Both the position numbers and the translations under genes were made by a program. Below, one piece after another: positions 9,451-27,220 of a stretch of 64,000 bases of DNA. Location: the NCBI GenBank assembly GCA_020444265.1, contig JAHLLH010000001.1, positions 620,001 through 684,000 on the forward strand. The letters are read 5' to 3'. The notes beneath the pieces are model-generated. The model was given only the letters and a program-made list of their open reading frames with translations, had not been told where the DNA came from and searched no databases. Each line of letters opens with the position of its first letter. Within the stretch, counting starts at the first letter, position 1. Origin of the DNA: a bacterium. Lineage in GTDB: Bacteria; Electryoneota; Electryoneia; Electryoneales; Electryoneaceae.

Positions 9451-9466
9451 AGCAACCCGTGTGCCA
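9451..9466 (-). promoter_or_regulatory. Sigma-54 (RpoN) -24/-12 promoter upstream of flgB
   Basis: Minus strand TGGCAC-ACGGG-TTGCT: GG and GC separated by exactly 10 nt, ~32 nt upstream of the flgB ATG. Confidence 0.85.
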
Positions 9467-23124: not shown

Positions 23125-23140
23125 TGGCACACCCATTGCT
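23125..23140 (+). promoter_or_regulatory. Sigma-54 -24/-12 promoter
   Basis: TGGCAC-ACCCA-TTGCT with exact 10-nt GG/GC spacing, in an intergenic region; predicted transcription start ~23152. Confidence 0.8.
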
Positions 23141-23151
23141 AAAAGTACGGG

Positions 23152-23369
23152 CAGAGCAAGACACTTTGTTCTTTGATGAGGAAAATAGGTTCGCGTACCC
23201 CTAACAACGTGATCTTATTTCCCACCCAATCCCTACTCTCGGTCAGACCCACTGCTGGGTTCGAGATCCGTGGCCATACGTTGAACCGGCTCCGGCGTAT
23301 GGAGGACATTGAAGCCAGCGTAGGGTTTGAGACCCCCCGATTCCCACAGGGTCGGGGGGTACTTTTTTG
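23152..23369 (+). ncRNA. Candidate structured leader RNA or sRNA (three-way junction plus terminator)
   Basis: P1 AATCCCTAC(228-236)/GTAGGGTTT(320-328); P2 TCTCG(237-241)/CGAGA(262-266) with inner ACCCA-CTGC-TGGGT; P3 TCC(267-269)/GGA(304-306) and CCATACG(274-280)/CGTATGG(296-302); terminator follows (numbers +23000). 5' end inferred from the sigma-54 element. Confidence 0.5.
23332..23368 (+). terminator. Rho-independent terminator
   Basis: ACCCCCCGA-ttcccacaggg-TCGGGGGGT followed by acTTTTTT. Confidence 0.85.
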
Positions 23370-23539
23370 CCCAATTCCGAAAAGAAACAGAGTTGCGTCA
23401 GATTAAAGCGACTCAATCTCTAATAAACTCCTAAAGATTCCTGTCTCTCTATTGCCCCTGAAATTTAGGTACTCCTATCTTCTGCTTAATTGTCAGGTTC
23501 CCGCACACAAGGCCCCCCCGCAGCCTACCTGGAGGATTC

Positions 23540-24655
23540 ATGAACAAGGCGTTCGCCGCCCTTGCCGTACTCTATCTGTTTGTGCTGGTTCTTTCCCTTT
23601 CGGGAAACACATACGCACTACCTGAGTATGGGGTTCGTTACGGACAAAGCTGTCAGCTATGTCATTATAGTGTGACCGGTGCTGGTGCTCGTACCCTCTA
23701 TGGCGCCCAGTTCTTCAGTTATACAGATCTACCGGCTAACCCCTTGGATTTCAGCGAAATTGGTGAAATCAACCCGATGATTTCCGACAATCTGCAGGCA
23801 GGATTTGATTTCCGAACCTTTTATTACGCCTACGACGAGAATAATCTCGAAGCGGATCAGAATTCCTTCCTGACGATGCAAGGTGACATCTACTTGACAT
23901 GGCAGCCTGGTGACCGGACCATTGTCGCCTTCGACAAAGGGCTGCGAAACACCTTCGAAGCCTATGTTCAGACCCAGGCACTTCCGGGTGCGATGGCAGC
24001 CAAAATGGGCCGTTTCATGCCTAATTATGGCTGGCGTTTTACCGATCATACCGCCTATGTCCGTCAGTTCACTGGCTTTGGTGGAACTCAAGGGGTCGGC
24101 GGTGAGGAAGATGGATTCGAAATAGGCCATTTCGATGAACGTTGGGAATTGTCCGCAGCTGTCACCAATGGTCCAGTTGCCGGACCTGTGGATGGCAATG
24201 AGGGAAAAGCGTTCACCTCCCGGATTGCGAAACGATTCCACTTCAGCGATATGGGACTTACGTTGGGCGGGAGTTACCGCTATGCTGAGTTTGGAAACGG
24301 TGGAGCGCCAAATCGTCGCCTGGCAGGCGCGTTCTACGGTGTCAGCCTGGGCAAACTTACCCTTTTGGGTGAAGTCGATGGGATCCTCACAGATGAAGCA
24401 GGCAGCTCGACAAAAAGTGGGTATGTGGCAACAAACCTCCTCCGCTACGACCTCAAGAAGGGCGTCGCCGCACACACCTCATTTGATTACTACGAACCCG
24501 ACCTCGACCTGGCTTCTGGCCAATTCTGGCGCGGACGAGTTGGGTTTGACTACACGCCGTATGGCTATGTCACCCTGACCCCAATCCTTGAATACAGCAG
24601 CGATCCAACGTATGAAGGTCTTTCAGCACAGTTTCACGTACGGCTTTGGTACTAG
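23540..24655 (+). CDS. Fused monoheme c-type cytochrome / outer-membrane beta-barrel (Cyc2-like porin-cytochrome)
   Basis: Signal peptide, then LPEYGVRYGQSCQLCHYSVTGAGARTLYGAQFF (CxxCH), then alternating aromatic-rich strands ending in ...QFHVRLWY; GGAGG RBS upstream of the ATG. Confidence 0.65.
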   Translation: MNKAFAALAVLYLFVLVLSLSGNTYALPEYGVRYGQSCQLCHYSVTGAGARTLYGAQFFSYTDLPANPLDFSEIGEINPMISDNLQAGFDFRTFYYAYDENNLEADQNSFLTMQGDIYLTWQPGDRTIVAFDKGLRNTFEAYVQTQALPGAMAAKMGRFMPNYGWRFTDHTAYVRQFTGFGGTQGVGGEEDGFEIGHFDERWELSAAVTNGPVAGPVDGNEGKAFTSRIAKRFHFSDMGLTLGGSYRYAEFGNGGAPNRRLAGAFYGVSLGKLTLLGEVDGILTDEAGSSTKSGYVATNLLRYDLKKGVAAHTSFDYYEPDLDLASGQFWRGRVGFDYTPYGYVTLTPILEYSSDPTYEGLSAQFHVRLWY

Positions 24656-24668
24656 GGAGGCCAGCACC

Positions 24669-25274
24669 TTGAACGTATCGATTCGAAACGGCATAGTTTT
24701 CCTGTTCTCAATTCTTTGGATGATTGGGAATGTCGCTGAAGCTGAACCACTTCGATTTATTGTTTCGTCCGGGTCTCCGACAGTCATCAAGTTCGAATCA
24801 AAGGCTTCTTTGGAGTCTTTCGCAGGTGGAACTGACCAGCTCGTTGGTTGGTTCAGCTTTGATACGGACAATTTTGGAAGCAGCATTGATGGTGAGCTGG
24901 TTGCCGACATGACCAGTTTTCGTACTGGGATTCCTGTGCGTGACAATCACATGCGTGAAAACCACCTCGAGGTCGGAACATACCCGATCAGTGTGTTCAA
25001 ACCTAAGGGTTTAAAGCCCGGTGCACCCCCTCGAATCACAGGGGGTGAATCGGTATCGTTTACCCTGCTTGGTGATTTCACGATTCATGGTGTGACCAAG
25101 CAGGTCGAAGCCGAGGTACAGGCTACCCTTCAACCCGATCGTCGCTCAATCGACGTGTGGGCCGCTATCAATATCCCACTCGCTGATTTCTCAATTCCCA
25201 GGCCCGAGTTTCTCTTCATGCGTGTCGGAGAAGTACAGAAAGTCCAAACTAAGTTCATCGCGACAAAAAACTGA
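24669..25274 (+). CDS. YceI family protein (copy 1)
   Basis: TTG start after AGGGAGG; signal peptide; KFESKASLESFAGGTDQLVGWFSFD...MRENHLEVGTYPISVF...GDFTIHGVTKQVEAEV. Confidence 0.85.
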   Translation: MNVSIRNGIVFLFSILWMIGNVAEAEPLRFIVSSGSPTVIKFESKASLESFAGGTDQLVGWFSFDTDNFGSSIDGELVADMTSFRTGIPVRDNHMRENHLEVGTYPISVFKPKGLKPGAPPRITGGESVSFTLLGDFTIHGVTKQVEAEVQATLQPDRRSIDVWAAINIPLADFSIPRPEFLFMRVGEVQKVQTKFIATKN

Positions 25275-25336
25275 AGCAACCATAGAATCGCTTCACTGCG
25301 GGGGGTGGTGAATTGCGTGAACCCGATGGAGGCAGC

Positions 25337-25948
25337 ATGCGACACCTGATTCAAAACGTACGACGTAGCATACTCGCAACATGCGCAGTCCTCGTGACCA
25401 CCGCACTTGTTCAAGCTGAACCAGTCACCCTCAAGGTTGAGCCGAATGATTTCAGCGAGGTAAAGTTTATCTCGACTGCGAAAGTGGAAACCTTTGAGGG
25501 AACAACGAATCGTATCGCAGGCAGCTTCACCGTAGACCCCCAGGATTTGCAGGCAGGGATTGAGGGTAAGCTGGAAGTGGACATGACCGCGCTTTCGACA
25601 GGAATCGGGCAGCGAGATGGCCACATGAAGGAGAACCACCTGCATACGGATGAGTACCCGCGAAGTGTGTTTGTGCCGAAGAAGATTGTCGACAACAGCT
25701 TCAAGATGCTGCCGGACGACGAATCGGTCAGTTTCAAGCTCGAGGGTGATTTCACATTACACGGCGTGACTCACACCATCCAGCCAGATGTGACTGCCAC
25801 CTGGCACCCGAACCAGAATCTGATGAATGTTATTGCAAAGTTCAGCGTCAATCTTGAGGACTACAACATTCCGCTGCCACAGTTTCTCATCCTGCGCCTC
25901 GCCCAGGAGCAGAAGCTCGAAATTCGGTTTACAGCAACAGTCGATTAG
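25337..25948 (+). CDS. YceI family protein (copy 2)
   Basis: ATG after GGAGG; signal peptide; KFISTAKVETFEGTTNRIAGSFTVDPQDLQAGIEGKLEVDMTALSTGIGQRDGHMKENHL...GDFTLHGVTHTIQPDV. Confidence 0.87.
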   Translation: MRHLIQNVRRSILATCAVLVTTALVQAEPVTLKVEPNDFSEVKFISTAKVETFEGTTNRIAGSFTVDPQDLQAGIEGKLEVDMTALSTGIGQRDGHMKENHLHTDEYPRSVFVPKKIVDNSFKMLPDDESVSFKLEGDFTLHGVTHTIQPDVTATWHPNQNLMNVIAKFSVNLEDYNIPLPQFLILRLAQEQKLEIRFTATVD

Positions 25949-25957
25949 GAAACGATC

Positions 25958-27166
25958 ATGCAGATCAGGCACATGTACACCACTGCACGGCAACGCATCC
26001 AGCACCTGCTCCCCGGAGTCAGTGTCGTGGCCCTCGCTTGCCTGTTTTCTTTCGCTTCAGGTTGCAGCGACCAGGGTGATCCACTATCCCCCACTCCGCC
26101 CGACACCACCAGCAACCAGGGAGAGTTCGACTGGGTGGACAACATCGGCCCCCTCTTTCAGCAACGCTGTATCGCCTGCCATGGGGCATCTCTCCAGGAA
26201 AATGGATTTGATGCCCGAACGTATGCTGATGTTTTCAACTACACGACAACCGCCGGTAATCCATTGATTGACCAAGGAAATCCGGATGGTTCTGAACTTG
26301 TCGCTCGCGTTGAAGGAGATGGTTTCCAGCGTATGCCAGTCGGTCCAGCGCTGTCAACGGATCAAATCGCCATGATTCGAGACTGGATCAGCAACGGTGC
26401 GCCCGAAGATGTTCCAAATGATACGACAGGTGGTGGCAATAACGGTGGCACAGTTGCAGCCGATTCCATCACCTGGGACAACACAGTCGGTCGCATCCTG
26501 AACAACAATTGCCTCTCCTGCCACAATGCAGATTTACACTACAACGATTTCCAGGTTGTCAATTTCGAGATGGTTTTCACGCACATGACCGAGGATGGTC
26601 GTGCTGCGGTGGATACGGCAGCTGTCGAAGAAAGTGAGTTACTACTCCGCCTGGAGGGCAATGGTGTGAGTTTGATGCCCGATGGCGGACCAGCACTAGC
26701 AGCCGAACTCATTGACACCGTGCGTACCTGGATAGAGAATGGTGCACCCGAGAATGATGCGTTCATCGGGATCGGAGGTGGGGATATTGGCGAACCTGGT
26801 GTGGGCATCAACTGGGTGGAATCTGTCGGACGTATTCTGGAGAACAACTGCGCCGCCTGTCACAGCGGTGGCGCTCCGCAGAGTGGGCTCGATCTGACCG
26901 ACTACGATGAGCTGTTTGACCACACAACTGCCCAGAACAACGATGTTATCAAAGAGGGTGACCTCGAGGACAGTGAATTGTACCGCAGAATCAATGGCGA
27001 TGGGTTTGCCATCATGCCACCTGCCGGGAGCCCTGAACTATCCTCGGCTGAGATCGACACAATCCGTCAATGGATTCTCGATGATGCCCCGTTTGATGGG
27101 AGCGAGAACGTTGAGCGATTCCCAGGACAACCTATTCTTCGGAATGTTCAATTCACGTCGAGGTAG
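25958..27166 (+). CDS. Triheme c-type cytochrome lipoprotein with three tandem domains
   Basis: Lipobox-like SFASGC; three repeats, each with CxxCH (CIACH, CLSCH, CAACH) and a distal MP motif (RMPVG, LMPDG, IMPPA) followed by ...IRDWISNGAPED-type ends. Confidence 0.85.
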   Translation: MQIRHMYTTARQRIQHLLPGVSVVALACLFSFASGCSDQGDPLSPTPPDTTSNQGEFDWVDNIGPLFQQRCIACHGASLQENGFDARTYADVFNYTTTAGNPLIDQGNPDGSELVARVEGDGFQRMPVGPALSTDQIAMIRDWISNGAPEDVPNDTTGGGNNGGTVAADSITWDNTVGRILNNNCLSCHNADLHYNDFQVVNFEMVFTHMTEDGRAAVDTAAVEESELLLRLEGNGVSLMPDGGPALAAELIDTVRTWIENGAPENDAFIGIGGGDIGEPGVGINWVESVGRILENNCAACHSGGAPQSGLDLTDYDELFDHTTAQNNDVIKEGDLEDSELYRRINGDGFAIMPPAGSPELSSAEIDTIRQWILDDAPFDGSENVERFPGQPILRNVQFTSR

Positions 27167-27185
27167 ATTAGTTGTCATGAGCGAC

Positions 27186-27220
27186 AAAGACCCGGTGGAG
27201 TTCCCACCGGGTCTTTGTTT
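27186..27220 (+). terminator. Rho-independent terminator, possibly bidirectional
   Basis: AAAGACCCGGTGG-gagtt-CCCACCGGGTCTTT then gttt. Confidence 0.85.

Follow-up and report, generated by a model that had tools for sequence, protein, structure and literature searches.

A Cyc2-like heme-porin, YceI lipocalins and a c-type lipoprotein in a conserved gene cassette with a putative role in outer-membrane electron transfer

What might an outer-membrane heme-porin, two lipocalins and a triheme lipoprotein be doing in a single operon? The question is raised by four genes within a 64-kb stretch of a genome of the Electryoneaceae, hereafter the window, which an initial annotation had read as an envelope electron-transfer module in a combination not known as a described system. 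The reading frames themselves are confirmed: the ORF listing and the sequence give four plus-strand genes for exported proteins, spanning 23540-27166 and separated by short gaps of 13, 62 and 9 nt (Table 1). Since the flanking genes, yicC- and gmk-like on one side (so named from a reading of their sequences) and a nitroreductase on the other, all lie on the opposite strand, the four genes form an operon of their own.

Table 1. Coordinates of the operon and its surrounding elements within the 64-kb window
Feature	Position	Strand	Basis
Sigma-54 -24/-12-like element TGGCACACCCATTGC	23125..23139	+	Exact TGGCAC-N5-TTGC; judged to lie outside the operon
Strong intrinsic terminator between sigma-54 element and operon	23332..23366	+	12-pair stem at 23332-23360, then T6
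Cyc2-like heme-porin, 371 aa	23540..24655	+	ORF; signal peptide; C38QLCH42; predicted 16-strand outer-membrane barrel (AlphaFold, Foldseek)
N-terminal heme segment of the porin, C38-C41-H42...G47-x-G49-x-R51	23648..23705	+	Alignment, residue counts
YceI-family lipocalin 1, exported	24669..25274	+	TTG start behind GGAGG; PF04264 E 1e-16; RDNHMRENHL signature
YceI-family lipocalin 2, exported	25337..25948	+	PF04264 E 8.8e-23; model pLDDT 88; Foldseek
Triheme PSCyt1 lipoprotein, 402 aa	25958..27166	+	Three CxxCH; three PF07635/PF13442 stretches; lipobox ...SGC, then CSDQGDP
Intrinsic-terminator-like hairpin 3' of the operon	about 27190..27220	+	GACCCGGTGG/CCACCGGGTC stem, then T-rich TTTGTTTG; by eye

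The operon had also been linked to sigma-54 and placed between intrinsic terminators, and both statements hold only in part. The promoter-like element is exact, being one of two matches to its consensus in the 64 kb (the other lies at 9452-9466 on the minus strand, TGGCACACGGGTTGC), and the genome encodes RpoN (27.1 bits). However, 400 nt separate its end from the first start codon, a 12-pair terminator intervenes, and no sigma-54-like site is found at the same place in relatives except for one weak match (locus L040); the four genes do not, on this evidence, constitute a sigma-54-controlled operon. Likewise, the downstream hairpin bounds the operon, but the upstream one, lying between the sigma-54-like element and the first gene, ends another transcript. 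The stretch from 23125 to 23366 is well folded (fold z -4.6, terminator included), with the terminator about 190 nt after the element, and it is more likely that the element drives a separate, stand-alone RNA of about 215 nt. Neither this candidate RNA, nor the operon leader, nor the window as a whole has a match in Rfam, and blastn of the sigma-54/terminator stretch returned no convincing match in relatives. A conserved attenuator was considered and rejected, as terminators in the leaders of relatives came to one weak match in 15 loci.

The 371-aa protein encoded by the first gene matches no family in Pfam or NCBIfam. Its AlphaFold model (18 aligned sequences, pLDDT 81) has sixteen strands after the N-terminal heme segment, so that the barrel and heme site on which the initial annotation depended are both predicted, and its best PDB match in Foldseek is OprP (2o4v, E 9.5e-10, rank 1); by sequence, the family profile weakly reaches OprO and OprP. 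Profile matches to 6qvm and 8e5f were discounted, being confined to the first ~45 positions that comprise the signal peptide and heme region. The CxxCH motif is present in all 28 cassette porins, and among the histidines and methionines of the mature window porin beyond the heme histidine, M113 and H170 alone are invariant across the same 28. H170 is situated where porins have their constriction loop, on a long loop (160-189) that follows strand 5; in porins, this loop folds into the lumen. This position makes H170 a candidate distal ligand, in a model that itself holds no heme. Two divergent sequences may be mentioned here. A long-branch, stand-alone porin (L038:8742-9839) lacks M113 and H170 and has neither a YceI nor a cytochrome neighbour, while L137:1065-1982 encodes a fusion of a like heme segment (YARQTGMSCNQCHIDPMGGG) with a membrane part resembling CopD and with a cytochrome b5 domain, from which the heme module seems to be mobile.

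Is this protein Cyc2, as first proposed? Like Cyc2 from Acidithiobacillus and Mariprofundus PV-1, it has a signal peptide, a single N-terminal CxxCH and a predicted 16-strand barrel, and OprP/OprO is the nearest solved structure for both families, Cyc2-PV1 having been given the same fold on the same templates (PMC8406198). The spacing AxPx(F/Y)...CxxCH is also common to the two. However, Keffer et al. named two Cyc2-defining motifs, AXPXFAR[Q/K][T/Y] upstream of CXXCH and PXL four residues downstream of it (PMC8406198), and our alignment finds neither in the window porin family. The FAR[Q/K][T/Y] of Cyc2 is replaced by Y[SGA]x (ALPEYGVRY in the window, A-x-P-x-Y-[SGA]-x-x-Y in the family), and PXL by NP[TS]GGGxR (CHYSVTGAGAR in the window, CHxNP[TS]GGGxR in the family); the family differs further in its partners, YceI and a PSCyt1 lipoprotein. 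A separate protein that carries the Cyc2 motifs (AVPAFARKYRMSCTTCHAPFPRL; L132:3398-4558, G000:C11 about 491397) is encoded in this genome too, its gene adjoining that of a pentaheme cytochrome weakly resembling ExtKL. Profile comparison aligns this protein with the window porin family (prob 95.6, E 1e-8), the barrel also being covered, and a Cyc2-motif gene adjoins that of the heme-porin in two other genomes. The profile match, shared architecture and missing motifs together argue for homology to Cyc2 but a separate family, and on sequence grounds the window porin belongs to a sister family of Cyc2 that has partners of its own. What stands of the original identification is therefore the homologous heme segment and barrel and not formal membership, and since the full motif is absent, Fe(II) oxidation is not transferable to the window porin.

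The two genes that follow encode YceI proteins, as annotated: PF04264 scores 62.1 and 81.8 bits against a curated cut-off of 23.7, and the model of the second (pLDDT 88) has the lipocalin fold, matching E. coli YceI, the polyisoprenoid-binding TT1927b, BcnA and X158 in Foldseek (fold matches 1y0g, 1wub and 5ixh). The YceI proteins of related cassettes share the signature R[DN]xHMxx[ND]H[LF], with HM in 27 of 28 and [ND]H[LF] in all 28; the canonical YceI copy of this genome reads RDGHLRSADFF at that signature. Their ligand would be an isoprenoid, maybe a quinone.

The fourth gene belongs to PSCyt1 (PF07635; 88.5 bits against a cut-off of 22), which matches in three stretches, with CxxCH. Because cassette cytochromes in relatives carry one, two or three hemes, the triheme form is an elaboration. 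The protein was originally described as a periplasmic triheme relay, but the lipobox marks a lipoprotein, and the carrier is hence taken to be anchored and not soluble. From the lipid-bearing cysteine onwards, the motif C-x-D-x-G occurs in 10 of 11 heme lipoproteins detected by a simple rule and in 1 of 17 other lipoproteins of the same loci; it is perhaps a sorting signal. Variant heme motifs occur among cassette-type cytochromes, namely CxCH (L041:9315-9806 and L098:5394-6140) and CxxxxCH instead of CxxCH (L110:6323-6727).

Comparative genomics indicates that these genes belong together. Relatives were drawn from the window's own family and phylum, from a wider search of 386 genomes and from a scan of named genomes. 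In relatives of the family and phylum, porin, YceI and cytochrome genes occur in the same order with short gaps or overlaps, and the conserved synteny that the initial annotation relied upon is strong. The wider search and the named-genome scan, the latter with a closer subset of the porin alignment, place the cassette in the window's own phylum (MAGs labelled LCP-89 or 'Calditrichaeota'), Zixibacteria, Krumholzibacteria and others; the named loci, having been retrieved by sequence motif, lean to close kin. Among the 51 porin loci on our tree, the window included, 24 have the order porin-YceI-cytochrome, with genes that often touch or overlap; the remainder have YceI only (4, the Eisenbacteria locus being of this type), cytochrome only (6), a cupredoxin (3), or other neighbours or a contig end (14). 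The six porin-cytochrome loci do without YceI, which is thus no strict requirement. On a quick tree the full-cassette label needs 8 changes, where shuffled labels need 18.1 on average; this strong clustering suggests that the cassette is largely inherited and sometimes reduced. The 39 genomes of the phylum include 11 with close cassette-type YceI genes (E<=1e-70), in every case with an adjacent porin, and none that has such a YceI without the porin. The pair of YceI genes and the triheme cytochrome, taken initially as the unit, are true of the window; judged by relatives' sequences, however, the conserved unit is a three-gene core that has a single YceI and, as a rule, a single heme; the triheme form and the additional YceI are lineage-specific variants. 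An apparent YceI-cytochrome-porin fusion at L120:4892-6298 was rejected, as internal deletions have brought truncated parts of all three genes into one frame, and this MAG cassette looks like an assembly fault.

Clustering of all neighbouring genes showed that porin, YceI and cytochrome are the sole families recurring across lineages at porin loci, and found no further partner common to different lineages. The porin's neighbour can nevertheless be exchanged. In three genomes of family f4, a longer porin is followed by a plastocyanin-like cupredoxin (L046:9234-9848, L045:2931-3587 and L049:9427-10008). Elsewhere in f4 there are YceI genes that share the HM..NHL subfamily with those of the cassette, and in at least three loci such a gene stands immediately behind one for a plastocyanin-domain protein (L144:4645-6351, L150:4778-6274 and L143:2586-4373) in which we also read a region resembling a beta-propeller and, at the C terminus, a sorting-like tail. 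As predicted from these sequences, the partner of the porin is a small redox carrier, either a c-type lipoprotein or, in the three f4 loci, a cupredoxin, and the repeated presence of redox carriers beside the heme-porin speaks most strongly for electron transfer. It also bears on the simplest objection, that the genes are mere neighbours with no common task, the heme motif being structural and the barrel an ordinary porin. Porin homologues without YceI or cytochrome do exist, but gene order kept in 24 loci over several phyla, matching presence and absence, exchange for another redox carrier and the invariance of M113 and H170 have already largely refuted this reading, which we consider highly improbable.

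The explanation that we favour, and think reasonably probable, is an outer-membrane electron-transfer cassette built around a single-heme porin of a sister family to Cyc2. The heme segment would sit at the periplasmic end or in the lumen of the 16-strand barrel, and its heme would pass single electrons between a small redox protein on the inner side and an external reductant, which by analogy with Cyc2 may be Fe(II) or some other reduced solute. The inside acceptor would be the envelope-anchored triheme PSCyt1 lipoprotein, whose place is taken in other lineages by a form with one or two hemes or by a plastocyanin-like protein, and this carrier would then feed electrons to the respiratory chain; the genome has three genes of the COX1 (heme-copper-oxidase) family. 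YceI would be a regular yet dispensable helper that binds an isoprenoid such as quinone and serves to buffer electrons, to relay them or to shield the outer membrane where the heme sits. Electron flow would probably be inward, as in Cyc2. The module as initially annotated is supported by synteny, barrel and heme segment. What the computations show is the gene order with its conservation, the barrel, the heme motif, the YceI fold, the lipoprotein signal and the exchange of partners; we infer the transfer itself, its inward direction, its substrate and what YceI binds. The barrel could, as a counterpoint, serve mainly for solute passage. It is also conceivable, if rather unlikely, that YceI is a soluble carrier shuttling isoprenoid quinone from one membrane to the other, between the inner membrane and the porin with its single heme; electrons would then cross the periplasm on a lipid as well as on heme proteins.

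The conduits MtrAB, MtoAB and PioAB, in which a larger barrel encloses a multiheme cytochrome, resemble the cassette in combining a barrel with a heme protein for outer-membrane electron transfer, the role that we suppose for the cassette; they differ in that the cassette's one heme belongs to the 16-strand barrel protein itself. For the association of YceI with cytochromes there are two precedents, BcnA/LcoA (PMC9113575) and Cbp2D (PMC8981238), and each recommends a rival explanation. The BcnA/BcnB-LcoA operon also has YceI lipocalins, sometimes paired, with a heme protein gene, but the partner there is an inner-membrane b561 where the cassette has a heme-porin and a c-type lipoprotein (PMC9113575). 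On this pattern the cassette might be an envelope antioxidant, in which reduced isoprenoid quinone borne by YceI quenches outer-membrane lipid peroxyl radicals and the cytochrome and heme-porin re-reduce the quinone or act as a peroxidase, like Burkholderia BcnA-LcoA. This role has been proposed where YceI lipocalins are partnered by a cytochrome b561 (PMC9113575), our YceI model resembles BcnA, and YceI is the most regular companion of the porin besides the cytochrome. Yet neighbour clustering finds no cytochrome b561 or other electron source recurring at the cassette, loci with cytochrome only or cupredoxin only occur, and radical quenching needs no 16-strand heme-porin; we consider this explanation unlikely.

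Cbp2D/Cbp2E likewise combines a YceI-type quinone-binding domain with monoheme c domains for electron delivery beyond the inner membrane, but is a single secreted fusion with a cellulose-binding module and without a porin (PMC8981238). It raises the prospect of outward transfer to acceptors such as metal oxides, humics or secreted oxidative enzymes, with YceI bringing quinol to the outer membrane. Cbp2D, in which a YceI-type X158 domain is joined to two c-type heme domains, is linked to the reduction of a secreted LPMO (PMC8981238), and a heterotrophic life seems likely for some of the FCB MAGs that carry Cyc2-like genes (PMC9769843). Against this, the single heme and the kinship to Fe(II)-oxidising Cyc2 suggest inward flow, and no secreted oxidase recurs beside the cassette in the neighbour clustering, so that outward transfer seems distinctly unlikely.

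Cyc2 homologues have already been reported from Krumholzibacteriota, Eisenbacteria and Calditrichota (PMC9769843), and so heme-porins in those phyla are not new as such. The combination of heme-porin with YceI and c-type lipoprotein seems to be new, for in the literature searched, which lay outside most subscription journals and preprints, we found no paper that joins the three; here the initial annotation is supported. Cyc2 is a marker gene for iron oxidation. If our reading is true, the existence of a related heme-porin family without the Cyc2 motifs and with partners of its own would change how genomes of several uncultured phyla are read, among them Zixibacteria, Krumholzibacteria, Eisenbacteria and LCP-89-related lineages, and the regular presence of YceI would give the old question of its part in electron transfer a concrete and testable setting.
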